A DNA stretch of 41,372 bases from the IMG/VR virus record IMGVR_UViG_3300009154_000101, positions 1 to 41,372 of that record. One strand, given 5' to 3'. The notes under the pieces are model-generated. The model worked only from the letters and a program-made list of their open reading frames with translations. It was not told where the DNA came from and ran no database searches. Position numbers and translations under genes: made by a program. Origin of the DNA: a virus. Shown here piece by piece: positions 2,743 through 40,818 of the stretch. How positions within the stretch are numbered: position 1 is the first letter of the stretch; every line of letters begins with the position of its first letter.

Positions 2743-3795
2743 TCAACCAAGAATGTTGGAGATCATAGCGCCAGAACCGATAAGACCCGTGGCGCCAAGG
2801 CCCACAAGGTTTACAACACGCTCAACAGTGATTTCAGCACGAACCACACGACGCTCACGAATGTAGTACTCGGGGCGAACGGCGGGGGTGCCGGTCAACT
2901 GGTAGGTGTAAGCGAATGCGGGAGTAGCGGCGTTAGCGCCACCGGCAGGCATCACGCTGTCGGAAGGACCATTGGGGCTGTAGAACAGCAGGATTCCGTT
3001 TGAAGGGAACACAGGCTGCAGAGTACCGTCTTCAGCCAGATAACGGCCTTCGGCAACGCGCAGGCCACGCTCAAGACCGAAGTAGCGAGCAAGCATGTCG
3101 GTGTCGATTGAATCGGCACTGGTGTACTTGATACGCTCAAGGATAGCCTGGTTGGTCAGCAGTTGGTCAAACACGGCGGTTCCAAGAACCATCGAGTTCG
3201 GACGAATACCGATTTGGTTGGCAACTGAACGCTTCAGGCTCAGAACGTCTTCGATCGGGTTAGAAGTCAGTGACGACCAAGCCGAAGGGCCAGCAGCGGA
3301 ACTGTAGGCAGTCTTGAAAGCAGCCCAGTCAACGAAACCGAGACCGGTTTGAGTGCCGGCGCCAGTGTTCGGCTCGTACGGGTTGTAACCGCCGGTCACA
3401 GTGATAGCCTGGCTCACGGTATATTCGTAAGCATTCATCAGGCGGCTCATCGCGTTGCGTGTTTCAATCGCACGCAGATCAACCTGAGCAGGACCTTCGC
3501 CAGCGTTCTCGATCACTTCTTCAGGAAGTTCCCAAGCCACGACTTCTTGCTCAAGAGCATAAGGCTCCGAGTCGTAACGGCTTTGAACGTACGGAATGTT
3601 GGTTCCGTAAGCGCGGCGGAAGTCGTTGATAGCGAACTGCTCTTTGCCGAAGCGCAGAATGCGGCCAGCACGAGTAGGGGTGTCAACGACGGGAGCGATA
3701 AAGTTGGCGATATTTGTCGCCGGAAGCATGAAACCTTGTGCAAGCGTAGTCAGAATCGGATCTACGCCAGCATAGGTTTGCTGGAGGTTCATCAT
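2743..3795 (-). CDS. Major capsid protein
   Basis: 350-aa protein, right size for an HK97-fold capsid subunit. It begins with a segment on residues 20-45 (FMLPATNIANFIAPVVDTPT) of the kind seen in Mu-like and 'cyanophage-type' capsid proteins ('..ia..v.P.v.v....g.i..f'), then the E-loop/spine-like region (FGKEQFAINDFRRAYG), helices around AMSRLMNAYEYTVSQAIT, and 'PNSMVLGTAVFDQLLTNQAI', the typical 'rpNt.vlg..v...L..hp.i' phrase. The ATG lies 8 nt after AAGGAGAC; MM at the start leaves 3795 or 3792 as initiator. No cleaved N-terminal scaffold domain is visible. Scaffold and protease are in the upstream gene 5634-8087. The 5' leader is structured (3845-3907). Confidence 0.9.
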   Translation of the reverse strand: MMNLQQTYAGVDPILTTLAQGFMLPATNIANFIAPVVDTPTRAGRILRFGKEQFAINDFRRAYGTNIPYVQSRYDSEPYALEQEVVAWELPEEVIENAGEGPAQVDLRAIETRNAMSRLMNAYEYTVSQAITVTGGYNPYEPNTGAGTQTGLGFVDWAAFKTAYSSAAGPSAWSSLTSNPIEDVLSLKRSVANQIGIRPNSMVLGTAVFDQLLTNQAILERIKYTSADSIDTDMLARYFGLERGLRVAEGRYLAEDGTLQPVFPSNGILLFYSPNGPSDSVMPAGGANAATPAFAYTYQLTGTPAVRPEYYIRERRVVRAEITVERVVNLVGLGATGLIGSGAMISNILG

Positions 3796-3844
3796 GGGAG
3801 GGAGTCTCCTTAATTAAAAAACGACTTCAAATGGTTGAAAACCA

Positions 3845-3907
3845 CAGTTGGGACTTACTCCGCGTCTTTCTAGGCTATGAGCCTAACGACTATCGGACGC
3901 CCAACTG
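3845..3907 (-). other. Nested stem-loop in the capsid mRNA leader
   Basis: In the 123-nt gap before the capsid gene the minus-strand RNA can form three nested helices: outer 8 bp CAGTTGGG/CCCAACTG (3900-3907 with 3845-3852), middle 4 bp CGTC/GACG (3896-3899 with 3863-3866), and inner TAGGCT-cat-AGCCTA (3880-3885 with 3871-3876). No U-run follows, so it is not an intrinsic terminator. It ends about 30 nt before the Shine-Dalgarno sequence. It could be an mRNA-stabilising or processing structure, or a translational control element; the function is unknown. Confidence 0.6.
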
Positions 3908-3917
3908 AGGCTATTTA

Positions 3918-4394
3918 TCAGGCGAAGCTGACAAGAACAAGGCTACGTCCGCCGATGTTTACGATTTCGCGAATACGGGGAGTAGTGCCGTCAAGAGTGA
4001 CGGTAACGCCTGTCTTGGAGGCTTGACCAAGAGCGTTGATCTTCAGGGGAACGTTGAGGTCGCCGGGAGTCACGAAAGGATGCGCGGGGTCGTTCTCGAT
4101 CAACAGCAGACCGGAGGTAGCAACGGTCAGTTGACGAGCGGTATAAGGCTGAGCCAGCGCGGTAGGCATGTAAGCCTGGTTAATACCAACGATGGTTGTA
4201 ACGCCACTCGGGGTGGTGAAAGCATCGGGGGCGGCGGCGAAGTTGGGGCCAGCCCAGGTGGCGTAAGAAACGGCGCGAAGTTCGCCGATTTCAACTACAC
4301 CGACGTCGCCGTCTTGATTGTCAGCAGGAGCTTCGAAAGTTTCTGCGTAACGGATGTACTGGCGTCCGTAAATCGGACCTGAATTAGTGCTCAT
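3918..4394 (-). CDS. Probable capsid decoration/stabilisation protein
   Basis: 158-aa protein directly upstream of the capsid gene. It is rich in Ala, Thr, Val and Gly, without charged helices, and alternates strands and turns: VVEIGELRAVSYATWAG, TTPSGVTTIVGINQAYMP, LTVATSGLLLIENDPAHPF, then VTPGDLNVPLKINALGQA. The 'G...tvatsG...v......f...gd.v' arrangement resembles small head proteins of the DUF2190 or lambda gpD type, which sit on or close to the capsid surface. Position between minor head protein and capsid gene supports this. The start ATG follows a GATAAAAT sequence similar to the GGGTAAAAT motif. The exact family is not certain. Confidence 0.6.
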   Translation of the reverse strand: MSTNSGPIYGRQYIRYAETFEAPADNQDGDVGVVEIGELRAVSYATWAGPNFAAAPDAFTTPSGVTTIVGINQAYMPTALAQPYTARQLTVATSGLLLIENDPAHPFVTPGDLNVPLKINALGQASKTGVTVTLDGTTPRIREIVNIGGRSLVLVSFA

Positions 4395-4417: not shown

Positions 4418-4957
4418 TCAATGTTTCGCCAAAATGTGACGAGTAAGATTGTTGGACGAAATCATCAGATCACAGTGAGGGCACTGTTTATAGGTTCTGT
4501 TAATTTTTCCGACGGGTAGTTTGCCTAAAACGTAATCCTCACCAGGACACGTATGAGACCTTTTGTTGTTTAGTCCGTTGTTCCAGTAAGGTTTTTTACC
4601 GGCTATTTTACCGCCTTTGGCTTTGTCCTCAAGGGATTGATTAAGGCTACCCAATCTTGAGGTTTCTTTGTGACGATCGGTTTTGCTGTAGTTTTGCCAG
4701 TTTTGCCTCGCGGCGGCCTTCGCTTTTTTGCTCCTGCGAATACCCTCAGCGGCGGCGGCTTTTCTTGCTTCGTCTGCTGTCCAACTTCCGGAGAGAAGAT
4801 TAGCAGCACAACAATCCAGGTAATCCCCGGTTTCCAGGTAGCGCAGCCTATGCATAAAAGCATGCATTGCTTTGTTCACTTTAACCAAGTTACTGGGATC
4901 GTTACTTCCCCCAAAATGTTTGGGGACGAGGTGGTGTACATGGTAGTTGATTTTCAT
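4418..4957 (-). CDS. HNH homing endonuclease with C-terminal zinc finger
   Basis: 179-aa protein inserted between two head genes. The N-terminal HNH core is visible at residues 5-32: YHVHHLVPKHFGGSNDPSNL followed by VKVNKAMHAFMH, that is H-H, N and H in the spacing of HNH nucleases that read 'vHHi.p..~G.~.~.NLv.l....H...H'. The middle is Lys/Ala-rich and basic, as in DNA-binding regions of mobile nucleases (NUMOD-like). A KPYWNNG block follows, and the C-terminus holds a C2H2-like finger, CPHCDLMISSNNLTRHILAKH in two parts (C-x2-C...H-x4-H). It is free-standing, preceded by a GGGTAAAAT motif 8 nt from the ATG. It probably moves between phage genomes and contributes nothing to the virion. Confidence 0.85.
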   Translation of the reverse strand: MKINYHVHHLVPKHFGGSNDPSNLVKVNKAMHAFMHRLRYLETGDYLDCCAANLLSGSWTADEARKAAAAEGIRRSKKAKAAARQNWQNYSKTDRHKETSRLGSLNQSLEDKAKGGKIAGKKPYWNNGLNNKRSHTCPGEDYVLGKLPVGKINRTYKQCPHCDLMISSNNLTRHILAKH

Positions 4958-5633: not shown

Positions 5634-8087
5634 TCAGCTGTACATCGTGCGCTTGATAGCTTCGACGTAGTCAATTCCCTCAGACTCGACCATCTTCAGG
5701 GCTTTTGAGTGGGGGTCCAGGTCTTCCTCGGAGTATTGGAAAGTTCCGCCAGCGACTTCGCCGTAAGTAACCATCGGGGGCAATTTGCTCAGCAGACCAA
5801 GAAGTTTGCTGGCAGCGGTTTCGCCTTCCGAGAACTCAAGGGTTCCGAAGTCCAGACCTTCGCAGTAACTTTGAAGTTCCGACTGAGGCATGATACCGTC
5901 TGTAAGACGACCTTCGTCGTAAAGTGACTCAACGAAAGAAGCAATCTTCTCTCTACGGGCACTCATCTTACCTTCTGCGTAACGGCGCTGAAGCTCCGCG
6001 TGCTCTTTCTTGAGGCGGTCGAGTTCCGCATAGATGGCTTCCGGGAAACCCTGCGGGTTCTTCTGAGCCATTGAACCCATGCCGTAGTTCATGTTGCAAT
6101 GATCTGACGAGAGTTCGTTGTACTCTTCTTCGTCCGAATCATCGCCGTCGTCTTCTTCGTAGGTTGAACCGAAGCCGGTCTTGGTGTAGGGATTTTTCTT
6201 TTCGCCGTGCTCTTCAGCGAAAACACCTCCGGAACGCTTGGTGGTTTGGTTCGGACCACCTTCAAAATCACCACTCAGATTGTCCTCCGAGAAAGCACCG
6301 TCGGGACCGACAGTTTGATTTGCTTCGTCAGTGACGTCCATGGCGCCAGGTGTGAGTTGCTTGCCTTTGGCTTTCTTCTCACCCTTGTATCCTTCGGAGA
6401 AAACACCATCGGGTCCGGTGATTTCAGCGACACCGCCCTCAAACTGACCGGGAACCAGCTGACCTTTCTTCTGTTTGGCTTTGCCTTGAACCAGATCGTC
6501 GTCAACTTCACCCATGGCGGTAACGCCGAGTTCGGAAGTTGTCTCGGCAGGCTGAGGCTCGGCATGGTCAATCTTACCACCTTTGACAGCTTGACGGCCG
6601 TCGGTGCTCTTTTGACGCATGACGCGCATACTTCCGTCAGACATCACGTTAATCGTGCTGACTGCGAAAACTTCATTGTCAGGAGACTCTTCGGTTTCGG
6701 TAGGAATCCGAGTGTCGGAATCTTCCCGTCCAGCGGGGTTAGCGCCAGAGGCAGTCTTAGGCTGATTCGGTTCGGGGTAGCTCTTGGCATCAGTGTCGTA
6801 CTGATCCATGTTTTCTACACGCTCTTCCGCTTCAGCCTGGCCTGCCCAACGAGATTCGCCGGTTGCGTTGTCAGAACTGTCTTTCGCAGTTTTCTTACGA
6901 TCTGCGTCTTGAGCAGCGTTTTTCGGTGTGTTCAGACGATCGGTATCTTGCTCACTGCTCTTGGCAGTGTTCATACGGTCTTCGCCAACTCCACCAGCTC
7001 CTTCTTTACCAACTTTCATGCGGTCAGCATAACCGTTGTCAGTAGAACGAGCAGTCTCGTAACGACCCGTGTCGTCATCTTCGTCGCTCTCTTTCTTTGT
7101 TCCGAACTTTACAACGCCAGGCGAAGGATTGGACTTGTAGGAAACTTCGTCGTAACTCATTTCCTCCATCTCAACTTTCTCCCCTGGTTTGAGTTTTTTG
7201 GCTTTGGCTTTCATTTCTTCGGCCTTTGCTCTGAGGGCAGGGGGGAGTTCCCCGTGCTGTTCGTCGTAGACATTCTCCACGACTTGAACTACTTGGCCAT
7301 GAGCACCCTTTGCGCGCTTACGGCTGATTTTTCCGTCTTCCATAAATTGTTCCTCTGGGAATTGGTCTTCAAGGTCAGCCGTCTGCTGAGTGATTTCGTT
7401 GGTTTTGATCTTTTCGTTAAATTGTTGACTCGCTTCGGGACTAGCGATTTCAGCTGCTGCCTTTGGGCCAGCCGCTTCGTCAACTTGAGTCTCTTTTTGA
7501 TTCTGCGAAGAATCTTGAAGGTCTTGAACGGCAGACGAGACGTCTTGCCGCACTTCCTCGAGTTTTTCGCGAAGAATCTCAAGAGGACTTTTCTCAACAA
7601 TCAATGTTGGTCCGAGTTCGGTGTCGAAGATTTGATCCGGGGAGAGTTCCACGGCAAAATCAAAACAACCATCCTCCTCGGTGAATGAGAAAGGTTCAAG
7701 CCCCTTGACTGCCGGGGGGGACGCCCCAAGCAAGGCAAGATGCCTCGCGCTCCATTGACCCTGGTGAGGGTTTATCTGGCTATCGGGTGAATAGAATGAG
7801 ATGGAAACTTTGCGGTAATGTCCATCCTTCACCAAATCTTTAGCTGTGTCGGTAAAAGCGACATCTGCGTAAAGGTTTGCCCCATCCCGCTTAAACCCTT
7901 GGATCCAACCGAATGAGGGCAAACTATCGTTGTCACCCTGATGCCCAAGAACAAGAGGAGCCTCGTGAACTTTGGGGTCGTAGGTGTCAACTACCTGCTG
8001 AAGATCAGTAGGCGAAAAGGTTCGTTGAACCCCTTGAGCGGAGGTTTGGTCACCCGCTTTGAAAACGTGAATTCTTTTCGTAAACAC
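5634..8087 (-). CDS. Fused prohead protease (Mu gpI-like) and scaffolding protein
   Basis: 817 aa. Residues 1-135 match Mu gpI-type prohead proteases: RTFSPTDLQQVVDTYDP, APLVLGHQGDNDSLPSFGWI, 'LYADVAF', DGHYRKVSISFY, and the closing HLALLGASPPAVKGL. The likely catalytic His is in VLGHQ and the Ser in KVSISF. The remaining ~680 residues are highly charged and low in complexity, with imperfect repeats: DR-(M/L)-x-TAK/GK blocks around residues 355-405 and three GPDG-(V/A)-FSE-like blocks around 555-640. The last 140 residues are helical (LDRLKKEHAELQRRYAEG) like a capsid scaffold. Protease and scaffold are joined in one chain, as in Mu where a nested scaffold is made from the same frame. Start is GTG at 8087; no good ribosome-binding site is visible. 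Confidence 0.8.
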   Translation of the reverse strand: MFTKRIHVFKAGDQTSAQGVQRTFSPTDLQQVVDTYDPKVHEAPLVLGHQGDNDSLPSFGWIQGFKRDGANLYADVAFTDTAKDLVKDGHYRKVSISFYSPDSQINPHQGQWSARHLALLGASPPAVKGLEPFSFTEEDGCFDFAVELSPDQIFDTELGPTLIVEKSPLEILREKLEEVRQDVSSAVQDLQDSSQNQKETQVDEAAGPKAAAEIASPEASQQFNEKIKTNEITQQTADLEDQFPEEQFMEDGKISRKRAKGAHGQVVQVVENVYDEQHGELPPALRAKAEEMKAKAKKLKPGEKVEMEEMSYDEVSYKSNPSPGVVKFGTKKESDEDDDTGRYETARSTDNGYADRMKVGKEGAGGVGEDRMNTAKSSEQDTDRLNTPKNAAQDADRKKTAKDSSDNATGESRWAGQAEAEERVENMDQYDTDAKSYPEPNQPKTASGANPAGREDSDTRIPTETEESPDNEVFAVSTINVMSDGSMRVMRQKSTDGRQAVKGGKIDHAEPQPAETTSELGVTAMGEVDDDLVQGKAKQKKGQLVPGQFEGGVAEITGPDGVFSEGYKGEKKAKGKQLTPGAMDVTDEANQTVGPDGAFSEDNLSGDFEGGPNQTTKRSGGVFAEEHGEKKNPYTKTGFGSTYEEDDGDDSDEEEYNELSSDHCNMNYGMGSMAQKNPQGFPEAIYAELDRLKKEHAELQRRYAEGKMSARREKIASFVESLYDEGRLTDGIMPQSELQSYCEGLDFGTLEFSEGETAASKLLGLLSKLPPMVTYGEVAGGTFQYSEEDLDPHSKALKMVESEGIDYVEAIKRTMYS

Positions 8088-28874: not shown

Positions 28875-29705
28875 TCACTTGTTCACCGAAATCGTTTCGT
28901 AAGTAGTTGGCTTGAGTCGAATCTCAGAATACCGGGACAACCATTCGTCTTTCGTCCTTCGCGATTTGGGACTTGCCAGCTCGGGGAACTCGGCGCAAAT
29001 CTTTTCAACGGTCTTGTTGTTCACGTCAAGTTTTCGCTCGAGATCCTCACACGTTCCGCCTACACCCGTGTGCTGTTTTGCTTTCACACAAACGTGATCA
29101 AACCGAAGCGTTCCGTTTCCGTGTACAGTGTGGTAAAGCGACAGGAAATAGTCATCCTTCATACTGTACTCCGTAATTCGCTCAAAGGCAGGGTCGCCCG
29201 CATAAAAACCAAAAGCGTGACCCATGACAAACTTCAAACCAGTGGTGATCTTCGGGTGTAGAAAACCTTTATTGCGAACTGCGTAGAAACCAAACAAACC
29301 GATATTGCGCCGACTGCTCAATCGGAATCCCCTCTCAATTAGGTCCGAAAGATCATCCACGGTTTTCAGGCGGCAGGGGTGGTCAAGCGGTTTCTGAGTG
29401 CCCTCCAGCTCTTTCAGGAGTTCAAGTTCCTCGACGGCGCTAACATCGTCGTCAAAGGAGAAAACAGGGGTTCCTTTGTCGTAATAGTTGGAAATGAAGT
29501 GGCGTTGATTGGTCAAACCCTTTTCACCAACGACGATATTGTACGCGGGGTTTGAACTTTGATATTTTTCCTTTTCCTCGCTGTTGGCGACGAACAAAGT
29601 CACGCGGGACAGGTCCACATCAGTTTTTTCAAGATAATTCAGAGTCAGTTTCTTTACTCCGTCCGGCCTTCCGTAAGTTGGGATAGCAATCTGATAATCA
29701 GGCAT
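28875..29705 (-). CDS. TET/JBP-associated DNA glycosyltransferase (TAGT-like, GT-A fold)
   Basis: 276 aa from ATG 29705, overlapping the dioxygenase stop by 8 nt. The N-terminus YQIAIPTYGRPDGVKKLTLN is a GT-A start; VVGEKGLTNQRHFISNYYDK then GTPVFSFDDDVSAVEEL contains the 'G...~R~.i~......~~~~~DDD~' block with DDD at residues 85-87, which binds metal and the sugar-nucleotide. Further conserved parts are NIGLFGFYAVRNKGFL and SMKDDYFLSLYHTVHGNG. These features match the glycosyltransferases found beside TET/JBP enzymes in phages, which add sugars to hydroxymethyl-pyrimidines in DNA. Co-translation with the dioxygenase supports this. Sugar donor unknown. Confidence 0.82.
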   Translation of the reverse strand: MPDYQIAIPTYGRPDGVKKLTLNYLEKTDVDLSRVTLFVANSEEKEKYQSSNPAYNIVVGEKGLTNQRHFISNYYDKGTPVFSFDDDVSAVEELELLKELEGTQKPLDHPCRLKTVDDLSDLIERGFRLSSRRNIGLFGFYAVRNKGFLHPKITTGLKFVMGHAFGFYAGDPAFERITEYSMKDDYFLSLYHTVHGNGTLRFDHVCVKAKQHTGVGGTCEDLERKLDVNNKTVEKICAEFPELASPKSRRTKDEWLSRYSEIRLKPTTYETISVNK

Positions 29706-31062
29706 TGGTTGTGTCCAGGGATCCTTTGATGTTTGTATTGGAACAACGTTCCATGTTTTGCTTTTCCTTGTAGGCCATCCATTCGGGGCTGGACCACATG
29801 CCGGGAAAAGATCCGGCCCATTTCGCTTCACCATTTCCCCGATCGGGGTGGTTGTCGCGAACGTAATCCAGGAACTTTCTGCGACAGATTTCGCACTCTA
29901 GATCATCCAGCAGAATGATTGAGTCCCGCTGATAGAACACCAGAGTCAGGTTCTCTGCGCCCTCTTCCTGGGCTACGAACTCAGTTTGTCCGTGAACGTA
30001 CCCTTGATTATCCCCGATCAGAATGTCGCCGTGACGCATATGAAAAGCGTAACCAAGTTCAGGCATTACGAAATCCATGCCTTCGTAGTTTCCGCTCTCG
30101 AATGTAACCAGGGCGGCTACTGCGTCCTTGGCGTTGTTTCCGTCAAGGTGGTAGAAAGTGGGGAAGTTATAGTTGCAGGTGATCGAGGTGTAAATGGTTC
30201 CGAACAAGTTGTAACGCTCGTCCTTCACTTTCTGGAACCGATCGGAAAGAACTTTGCCTTCTGCCGGAAAGAGTTGTTTCACCAGGCCGTCCACCTCTTT
30301 GTAGAAGTCGGCGAAAGATGCGAAGTCTTCGTAACGCTCCATGGTCGGGGAAGTTAGTCGTCCGAACGGGGTTCGCCCGCTCCGGTCAATCGTTCCAAGA
30401 ACAGCGGAGAAAGTTTTGTTTGAGCGCGGCTGCTTCGTAATGAAAATCTTCTTGAACTCTTTGGTAGCAGGAATCTTCGCCTCGGTAACCGCCCACACAG
30501 TGCGTAGCCACTTCTCAAACCACGCGAGTTTGGCTTTGTTGCGATTGGCAATTGCCTCTTTACGAGCGTCGAACGGTGTGCTCTTCTTGCGAACAATGGA
30601 GTCCCACCTCTCAACCTCTTCCAGATCAACGTAACCAGCTTTCTCGGCTTTGCCGACGTAGTAGGTTGTGCGAGATGGGCGAGTGTCAGAGTTAAGGATC
30701 TCGAGGGCTTCATCAAGAGTTGAGACCAACCCTTTCAGAGCACGCCTCAGAAACTCGTTCTGACCGTAAGTTGTGCGGATTTCAACGTTCGTGTAGATTT
30801 CTTTACCGGATGCCATACCCCTCTGGTCGGACAGAAGGGAGCGGCAAGCCCAACGCCAGTACTCATAATCTTTCGTGCCAGGGGTGATTTTTTTCGCTGC
30901 TTCCACTGCATTCTTTCGGAAGGCTACCACAAGAGTGCCATCGGGAGCAAACACGTCGCAATCCTCGTCGATCAACTCGTGGCAATCTGAGAGGGTTGGG
31001 CGCTCGCCGAGTCGGTCTTTGTCGAAAGGCAGAAGCTCAGTTAATCGTATAGTTCTTACCAT
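29698..31062 (-). CDS. TET/JBP-family 2-oxoglutarate/Fe(II) dioxygenase (DNA pyrimidine hydroxylase)
   Basis: 454 aa. The double-stranded beta-helix core is at ~290-382: YTSITCNYNFPTFYHLDGNN with the iron ligands H305 and D307, AAVALVTFESGNYEGM-type segment (AVAALVTFESGNYEGMDFVM), PELGYAFHMRHGDILIGDNQ and GYVHGQTEF with the distal iron ligand H357; R379 in LVFYQRD probably binds 2-oxoglutarate. The order 'f.~h.D..n......~~t~..G.~.G.~~~~Pelg.a~.~..GD~l~~.~...HG' is that of TET/JBP enzymes, which oxidise the methyl group of 5-methylcytosine or thymine in DNA. The N-terminal ~280 residues are helical; the C-terminus has a Cys pair in LECEICRRKF. Followed by the TAGT-type glycosyltransferase in the same operon. 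Whether cytosine or thymine is the substrate is open. Confidence 0.88.
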   Translation of the reverse strand: MVRTIRLTELLPFDKDRLGERPTLSDCHELIDEDCDVFAPDGTLVVAFRKNAVEAAKKITPGTKDYEYWRWACRSLLSDQRGMASGKEIYTNVEIRTTYGQNEFLRRALKGLVSTLDEALEILNSDTRPSRTTYYVGKAEKAGYVDLEEVERWDSIVRKKSTPFDARKEAIANRNKAKLAWFEKWLRTVWAVTEAKIPATKEFKKIFITKQPRSNKTFSAVLGTIDRSGRTPFGRLTSPTMERYEDFASFADFYKEVDGLVKQLFPAEGKVLSDRFQKVKDERYNLFGTIYTSITCNYNFPTFYHLDGNNAKDAVAALVTFESGNYEGMDFVMPELGYAFHMRHGDILIGDNQGYVHGQTEFVAQEEGAENLTLVFYQRDSIILLDDLECEICRRKFLDYVRDNHPDRGNGEAKWAGSFPGMWSSPEWMAYKEKQNMERCSNTNIKGSLDTTNA

Positions 31063-31158: not shown

Positions 31159-31758
31159 TCACTGCTCGTATTCGTAAGTTTCAAAAGCGGAGTTCAAGAT
31201 CGCCTTCATCCTGTGAGCAATATCGAGGTCTTTACCGCAGTAGATCGTGGTCTTGAGCATGTCGCAGTAGACTTCCGGCTCTTCTTTGGTAACGGCAACA
31301 TCGTGGAAGTTGACTCGGTACTTCATACCAGTCTCTTCGCAAAGCTGGTTGATTTGTCGAGCTTTCTCGATGAAGTTTTGACCGTGACCTTTGATGCCGT
31401 CGTCCTGACCGATCTGATCCAACCATTTGTGAACCATTTCGTGAAGCAAGGTGCTTCGGACTTGGGTTGGATCGACCGCCGCTACTTTGGCGATCTTGAT
31501 CATTCCTGCGCCCCGTGTCCGGGAAGGCTTGTATTGCCCCCACAGTTTGCGAAACCGGCCTTCCCATTTCAGCTCAGGGTAAATATTGCGCTTATCCCCG
31601 TTCGCGTCAGTCTTCTCGATTACTCGAAGAACTCGAAGTTTTCCGTCGAAGTACTTGGCGTTGAACTCTGCGTACAACTCACCGAGGTCATAGATCGACG
31701 TGGTGTTTGGGCAGAATGCTTGAAAGAAAGAGGCTGAGACAGTTGTTTTGAATTGCAT
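31159..31758 (-). CDS. SprT-like zinc metallopeptidase
   Basis: 199 aa. The N-terminal IYDLGELYAEFNAKYFDGKL is the usual SprT start ('l..ly..~N..~F.g.L'), then KWEGRFRKLWGQYK. The zinc site is VRSTLLHEMVHKWLDQIG (H106, E107, H110) and DGIKGHGQNFIEKARQINQL with the third ligand near H125. SprT/Spartan-type proteases act on DNA-bound proteins in eukaryotes; phage homologues are common and mostly uncharacterised. GAGGAGA precedes the ATG at good spacing, so unlike the cassette-driven first genes this one uses a normal ribosome-binding site. Second gene of the cassette 6 operon, 12 nt after the 70-aa gene. Confidence 0.85.
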   Translation of the reverse strand: MQFKTTVSASFFQAFCPNTTSIYDLGELYAEFNAKYFDGKLRVLRVIEKTDANGDKRNIYPELKWEGRFRKLWGQYKPSRTRGAGMIKIAKVAAVDPTQVRSTLLHEMVHKWLDQIGQDDGIKGHGQNFIEKARQINQLCEETGMKYRVNFHDVAVTKEEPEVYCDMLKTTIYCGKDLDIAHRMKAILNSAFETYEYEQ

Positions 31759-40353: not shown

Positions 40354-40818
40354 TCAATAAATGTAGGTTATCCGGTCCCAATCTTCGGAGTCGATCGTTC
40401 GCAGGGAAGACTGCAACTTTTCGTGAATCGACTTGATCACATAGTCCGGAACGTGACGAGTTCGCTGAAAGTTTCGAGCCAGGCAAGTTGCCAGAGATGC
40501 GTCAACGACCACGGCTTCAACTTTGCCGTAGCCATAGGAACGCAACAGTGCTATAGCCTCTTTCCGGTAAGACGCTCGATAATGAGTGCCGTCCAGAATA
40601 ACAGGTTTGCCGCAAGCCTGAGCAACGAGTTCTTCGATGCGATCGTGAATTTCCTGCCAGACTCCTTGGATGTCTGCGGACCCGTACAGTTCAGCGCGGA
40701 TATCGTCACCGGAGATAATAACAGCATTCTCGATTTCAGCCAGCTTTGCGGCTTGAGTGGATTTGCCAGAGCCAGGGGCTCCAACCATAACGTAGGCGTA
40801 AGAGTCTTTCATTTCCAT
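40354..40818 (-). CDS. P-loop kinase resembling the polynucleotide 5'-kinase domain
   Basis: 154 aa. Walker A is VMVGAPGSGKSTQAAKLAE (residues 10-28); ISGDDIRAELYGSADIQGVW matches the 'S~D~.R......~....~' substrate segment of T4 Pnk kinases; VILDGTHYRASYRKEAIAL gives '~DaTn~....R' and LARNFQRTRHVPDYVIKSIH gives the lid with 'R..R.vPe.vi..~~..~'. These are the T4 Pnk/zeta-toxin-like AAA_33 kinases. It is the first gene of cassette 10; start at ATG 40818 or the ATG two codons later. The adjoining phosphatase gene starts 5 nt after its stop. A HAD 3'-phosphatase-like protein is encoded 6 kb away (34419-34808). Confidence 0.82.
   Translation of the reverse strand: MEMKDSYAYVMVGAPGSGKSTQAAKLAEIENAVIISGDDIRAELYGSADIQGVWQEIHDRIEELVAQACGKPVILDGTHYRASYRKEAIALLRSYGYGKVEAVVVDASLATCLARNFQRTRHVPDYVIKSIHEKLQSSLRTIDSEDWDRITYIY

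Follow-up and report, generated by a model that had tools for sequence, protein, structure and literature searches.

Hairpin leader of a major capsid gene and its relatives in freshwater cyanophages: a conserved core with an exchangeable arm

Genomic context and predicted fold of the leader

The window analysed here (the whole stretch of 41,372 nt of IMG/VR virus record IMGVR_UViG_3300009154_000101) encodes a major capsid protein sharing 67-69% identity with the major head protein of phage S-CBWM1, and the gap that separates the capsid ATG from the preceding gene's stop codon contains a 63-nt structure (Table 1). Because the capsid gene lies on the minus strand, the leader RNA is the reverse complement of positions 3845-3907, namely CAGUUGGG C G UCCG A UA GUC GU UAGGC UCAUA GCCUA GAAA GAC G CGGA GUAAGU CCCAACUG. 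Its predicted fold comprises helices of 8, 4, 3 and 7 bp (-25.9 kcal/mol; z -4.69), none of 200 shuffled sequences (mean -13.5 kcal/mol) being as good. An initial annotation made from the letters of the window had proposed three nested helices of 8, 4 and 6 bp, which match this fold except that the 3-bp helix was overlooked. The absence of a U-run, also stated there, was confirmed: there is no terminator call at the site, and P1 is followed by UGGUUUUCAACC instead of the direct U-run that completes the GC-rich hairpin of an intrinsic terminator. A promoter search of the window found no sigma-70-like promoter in the gap that contains the leader. No Rfam 15 family reached the gathering threshold anywhere in the window, and thresholds up to E = 10 gave just two matches, both sub-threshold and on the wrong strand. 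Neither a further copy of the core (P1, internal loop and P2) nor a processing enzyme was identified in the window.

A homing-endonuclease-like gene (phrog_655; 4418-4957, minus strand) adjoins the capsid region. The window also encodes a Tet_JBP oxygenase (29698-31062, minus strand) and a TET-associated glycosyltransferase (28875-29834, minus strand), and on the basis of these two genes the phage probably carries hypermodified DNA bases.

Table 1. Elements of the capsid leader and flanking genes, with positions in the window
Feature	Position	Strand	Basis or remark
Upstream gene	3918..4394	-	ORF list; no PHROG match; stop codon 10 nt before P1
P1, 5' strand, CAGUUGGG	3900..3907	-	Pairs with 3845-3852; fold and covariation
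Internal loop, 5' side (C, then a variable nucleotide)	3898..3899	-	Between P1 and P2; asymmetric, conserved
P2 and apical arm, module P2-UA-P3-GU-P4-NNAYA-P4'-GAAA-P3'-G-P2'	3859..3897	-	Match to model R1, 51 bits; covariation
Internal loop, 3' side, GUAAGU; consensus (G/A/U)UAAG(U/C/A)	3853..3858	-	Alignments
P1, 3' strand, CCCAACUG	3845..3852	-	Fold and covariation
Second hairpin H2, UGGUU-UUC-AACCA	3832..3844	-	Covariation
Conserved single strand UUUGAAGUC	3823..3831	-	Directly past the hairpins; alignment
Shine-Dalgarno GGAG (3809-3806) paired with CUCC (3800-3797)	3797..3809	-	Just 5' of the AUG; pairing probability
Major capsid protein gene, first cistron past the leader	2743..3795	-	ORF list; phrog_1005 (major head protein), E 2e-52

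Conservation of the leader in front of related capsid genes

Relatives of the capsid gene, mostly metagenomic contigs, were taken from IMG/VR and their leaders were aligned with MAFFT. Nearly all relatives for which upstream sequence is available have an equivalent leader, and about 50 distinct ones retain the fold with strong compensatory change, which together with the z score bears out the earlier claim of a folded leader before the capsid gene. Of the two lines of support, the evolutionary one is by far the stronger, ahead of folding energy. Indeed (i) P1 varies while its pairing is kept (CAGUUGGG/CCCAACUG, GGCUGGG/CCCAGCC, UCCUUGG/CCAAGGA and others), with 90% of its cells paired in 36 distinct leaders and two-sided changes at five of its eight pairs, (ii) H2, which is missing from one leader (L190), covaries between UGGUU/AACCA and UGUGU/ACACA, and (iii) the covariation score of P1 and H2 together is 0.352 in the 36 leaders, against 0.114 for shuffled alignments and at most 0.131 when the partners are slid. 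Compensatory base changes, on which the initial annotation had made its case depend, are thus present in P1 and H2, and the arm and the core described below covary as well. Among unpaired positions, UAAG is invariant in all 36 aligned leaders, the loop C preceding the arm is invariant in the same alignment (A2), and UUGAAG(A/U)C follows the aligned hairpins without exception.

The most distant relative, S-CBWM1, has at the same place a simple hairpin of 8-9 bp and UUUUUGAAC; this hairpin is unrecognised by the covariance models, and the leader of L163 is likewise divergent. The G-U pairs found in these leaders, including two in the S-CBWM1 hairpin, point to an element acting as RNA rather than DNA. 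Downstream of the hairpins, the Shine-Dalgarno GGAG is predicted to be paired in all 34 distinct leader ends, two clades achieving this in different ways, with a mean probability of 0.98 against 0.72 in shuffled sequences.

The core stays with the capsid gene where the upstream gene has changed (L039, L047 and L058, in which a different coding sequence is inserted directly 5' of the leader) and where an intron splits the capsid gene (L024 and L037). A group-I-intron-like insert (AUGAUAUAGUCUGACC...) is located after the first capsid codons in L024, L025, L026, L037, L071 and L160, the leader being upstream of the insert.

The arm as a portable 38-nt module

Some capsid leaders have a short P2 hairpin and others, including that of the window, a long arm; even sister leaders differ in this respect (L048, long; L075, short). 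Distribution of the long arm on the capsid gene tree needs eight changes, at least five of which are forced by well-supported branches, which puts the number of its gains or losses at five or more. In most capsid leaders ordinary hairpins take its place.

A pattern search for the arm recovered it outside capsid leaders as a stand-alone hairpin of 38 nt (UUGG-UA-GUC-GU-UAGGC-AGAUA-GCCUA-GAAA-GAC-G-CCAA), hereafter the module. The initial annotation had treated the element as one unit; its inner part is a separate portable module occurring mostly behind tRNA genes. Among 42 distinct non-capsid copies, 38 begin at most 2 nt from a tRNA 3' end, as called by ARAGORN with a variation of 1 nt, and one begins 11 nt away. 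The adjoining tRNAs belong to nine isotypes, and these copies include those of Synechococcus phages S-SZBM1 and DSL-LC02. There are one or two copies per genome, and within a module-bearing cluster one or few tRNAs carry it, simple hairpins following the others in the corresponding position. The closing frame can also enclose a different apical domain, of which there is at least one (L248 and others). The arm is thus interchangeable with ordinary hairpins in both leaders and tRNA trailers.

Covariation supports the nested P2-P3-P4 structure only (score 0.504, against 0.162 shuffled and at most 0.092 slid), with 97% of cells paired, two-sided changes at eight of 12 pairs and many conserved unpaired bases. 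Rfam gave no match to the module with the E threshold raised to 10, and its sequence was not found in open-access papers. One strict exact pattern, searched in 84,980 bacterial and archaeal genomes, gave a single match, a chance one inside a coding region of Lentimicrobium, so that no host copy is indicated in that strict form; plasmids gave partial chance matches only.

Other RNAs were observed besides the module. In brief, these include: a conserved 69-nt RNA (GGAAGUUAAGUCAAAGAAUC...CUGGUGUAAGUCCAGUAACUUCC; L126, L116, L138 and about 60 IMG/VR stretches), usually directly behind a tRNA and module, with a tRNA-like cloverleaf fold and T-arm loop UGUAAGU, yet no tRNA call; a conserved tRNA-trailer hairpin GCG-CUGG-AAAGAUAAA-CCAG-AAUGCCG with covarying closing stem (L116, about 7455-7494, minus strand; L122, 3356-3397; L084); and a trailer RNA GAUAGAGG-GUAAG-CCUCUGUUAUAUCC...GGUAUAUCAC (L103, L138, L254 and L122), in which GUAAG is in the loop or beside the stem.

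The core as a multi-copy intercistronic leader in relatives of S-EIVl

Two cores of the form P1-C-P2-RUAAGU-P1' were found in Synechococcus phage S-EIVl (hairpins at 40,728-40,785 and 41,438-41,476), each upstream of a small gene, with P1 and loop in common and different arms (one long arm, one short P2). A scan for the S-EIVl P1 with free P2 returned 107 stretches with 106 distinct copies, about 20 of which could, by our estimate, be due to chance. Because the search pattern fixes P1 and loop, the conservation of their letters in this set is by construction, and the independent evidence is provided by P2 folding, position, strand and spacing. Indeed, most of the 44 P2 arms, which are unrelated to one another in sequence, fold (mean z -3.3), and the core model detects 1-8 copies in a genome, which always share one strand. 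The core has a covariation score of 0.241 against 0.077 shuffled; UAAG is invariant in an alignment of 29 core sequences, and the loop C is likewise conserved in these multi-copy relatives.

The upstream stop codon is usually 2-20 nt before P1, and 97 copies are followed by an open frame of 30 codons or more, its ATG in most cases 25-34 nt away. In none of these 97 copies do the 22 nt preceding the ATG contain a Shine-Dalgarno-like motif, and the spacer from core to ATG is G-poor (5% G). Upstream of the leaders, no position-specific signal of a shared promoter was detected. The genes that follow represent about 20 unrelated protein families, the two core-led genes of S-EIVl being members of the two largest; their homologues carry the same core with different arms, and other contigs have genes in common with S-EIVl. 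Assignment to hosts rests on S-EIVl, S-SZBM1, DSL-LC02 and S-CBWM1. The core is therefore not specific to the capsid gene and is an intercistronic leader of many unrelated genes in S-EIVl-like phages. An autogenous operator bound by the capsid protein was rejected as a general role, because the same core fronts some 20 unrelated families.

Proposed function and alternatives

The evidence is comparative throughout and shows the structure of the element, its covariation, its distribution and the interchangeability of its arm. A cis-acting RNA signal that defines or shields the 5' end of the downstream mRNA is the best explanation of its location between co-directional genes, the lack of a promoter signal of its own, the fixed distance to the start codon, the many unrelated genes served and the consistent use of the coding strand; we give this reading an even chance. 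The core (P1, C/RUAAGU loop and P2) would most likely mark a cut point in a polycistronic transcript or a block to decay from the 5' side, and the gene behind it would be served by a separate, stable message whose start is at the hairpin or close to it. We infer that transcription passes through the element, that cleavage or stabilisation takes place there and that a factor recognises it, the asymmetric internal loop being the putative recognition site. P2 is a slot accepting many different hairpins, filled in the window by the 38-nt module, and leaders of the capsid clade additionally have the second hairpin, the conserved UUUGAAG strand and the paired Shine-Dalgarno site. The initial annotation, which had suggested a stabilising, processing or regulatory role in the capsid leader, is thus partly supported: such a role fits the evidence, and its restriction to the capsid gene was too narrow, the core preceding many unrelated genes.

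The early mRNA of phage T7 contains several intercistronic, irregular RNase III hairpins in which an asymmetric internal loop separates the lower from the upper stem. The core is similar in being multi-copy (1-8 copies per genome in S-EIVl relatives), in lying between genes of co-transcribed type and in its asymmetric loop, but it differs by its shorter helices, invariant UAAG loop, freely exchangeable upper stem and phage group. By analogy of anatomy, cleavage of the core is putative. Against cutting by RNase III, P1 and P2 together make 10-12 bp, which is short for a classical site. A T7-type site has about two turns of double-stranded RNA; most copies of the core have a P1 of 6-8 bp and a P2 of 3-7 bp, and more where the arm is long. 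Formation of an mRNA 5' end would not by itself account for the module at tRNA ends. Structured candidate cis-regulatory RNAs are known from cyanophage gene leaders (manA, wcaG and PhotoRC-II motifs; PMC2864571), but these are placed ahead of genes for metabolism or photosynthesis in marine phages, unlike the leader of the window, which gave no Rfam match.

The main rival, which we consider rather unlikely, is a translational operator: the conserved loop would be bound by the ribosome or by a protein of phage or host, and initiation at the following AUG would thereby be controlled. In the capsid clade the paired Shine-Dalgarno would be the means, and in S-EIVl-like phages the element would help genes lacking a Shine-Dalgarno to initiate. 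Conservation of the loop would also suit a protein-binding operator, and both the fixed AUG distance in S-EIVl-like leaders and their complete lack of Shine-Dalgarno sites are in its favour. The pairing of the Shine-Dalgarno in 34 of 34 capsid leader ends, achieved differently in two clades, suggests translational control in that clade in particular; however, this hairpin is a weak one of 4 bp, and 30% of shuffled controls pair equally well. Moreover, the conserved hairpin itself does not overlap the ribosome-binding site, and the variety of proteins encoded behind it speaks against autogenous control.

A further reading concerns the arm and not the core, and takes into account the antitoxin RNAs of these phages. 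The abiF RNA is the antitoxin of the Abi_2/AbiF toxin (PMC12373285; Rfam RF03085); in C. difficile it binds the toxin directly and so neutralises it (PMC12373285). A true abiF RNA (RF03085, 41-56 bits) was found in three cyanophage records: OL473597.1 (S-SZBM1; 31410-31446, minus strand; L290), L116 (7412-7448, minus strand) and G004:C1:185232-185268 (L292). The copies of S-SZBM1 and L116 are located in tRNA clusters that also contain the module, a few nt upstream of tRNA-Ala, and none of the three records has an Abi_2 toxin gene above threshold; an orphan RNA antitoxin used against a host AbiF is possible. The module resembles abiF RNA as a short structured RNA (about 37 nt for abiF) of the same clusters, but the two agree neither in sequence nor in structure, they are separate elements in L116, and the abiF covariance model has no match in G000.

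Because these three records carry true abiF RNA, it is possible that the module is a decoy or antitoxin-like RNA, acting in trans and borne on tRNA precursors and capsid mRNA, both abundant transcripts of the phage; it could for example mimic an RNA antitoxin against an RNA-controlled host defence. Its low copy number, its many conserved unpaired bases and the lack of a match in bacterial genomes other than the chance one are compatible with this, but neither a cognate toxin nor a bacterial copy was found, no link emerged between the module itself and any toxin, ordinary hairpins stand in for it in most capsid leaders, and its placement at exactly zero distance from tRNA ends suggests a role in cis. 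We hold it improbable. The same low probability is given to the broader proposal that interchangeable RNA cassettes move between tRNA 3' trailers and mRNA leaders, the 38-nt cassette disarming an RNA-controlled host defence as such a decoy or antitoxin-like RNA, beside the orphan abiF RNA.

The position of the module directly behind tRNAs of nine isotypes would also agree with a signal for the formation of tRNA 3' ends, cut by an endonuclease or by a self-cleaving ribozyme and re-used in leaders, which we rate a little lower still. Only one or few tRNAs per cluster carry the module, though, and simple hairpins are found elsewhere at the same place. HDV-like theta ribozymes reportedly are small structured RNAs near phage tRNAs, and the module is like them in adjoining phage tRNA genes, but the structure supported by covariation is a plain nested hairpin and not an HDV-like double pseudoknot; the Rfam HDV families do not match the module, nor does any Rfam ribozyme at any threshold tried. 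Finally, a DNA palindrome or small mobile repeat devoid of RNA function, to which the repeated gain or loss of the arm and the presence of one module in unrelated phages and places might point, is very improbable, as the closing stems covary independently at each site, G-U pairs occur, the coding strand is always used, unpaired loops are conserved and the distance to the next start codon is fixed.

Novelty and biological meaning

Checked against Rfam 15 and one open-access literature library, this hairpin-leader family of freshwater cyanophages is apparently undescribed. The occurrence of one module in both tRNA trailers and mRNA leaders, together with the orphan abiF RNA nearby, suggests that functional small RNAs of other kinds are also stored in the tRNA clusters of phages. 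In summary, the analysis revealed an RNA family that freshwater cyanophages use as repeated, gene-by-gene leaders, sometimes several per genome, and which bears on how the amounts of individual proteins encoded on shared transcripts are adjusted in these phages.
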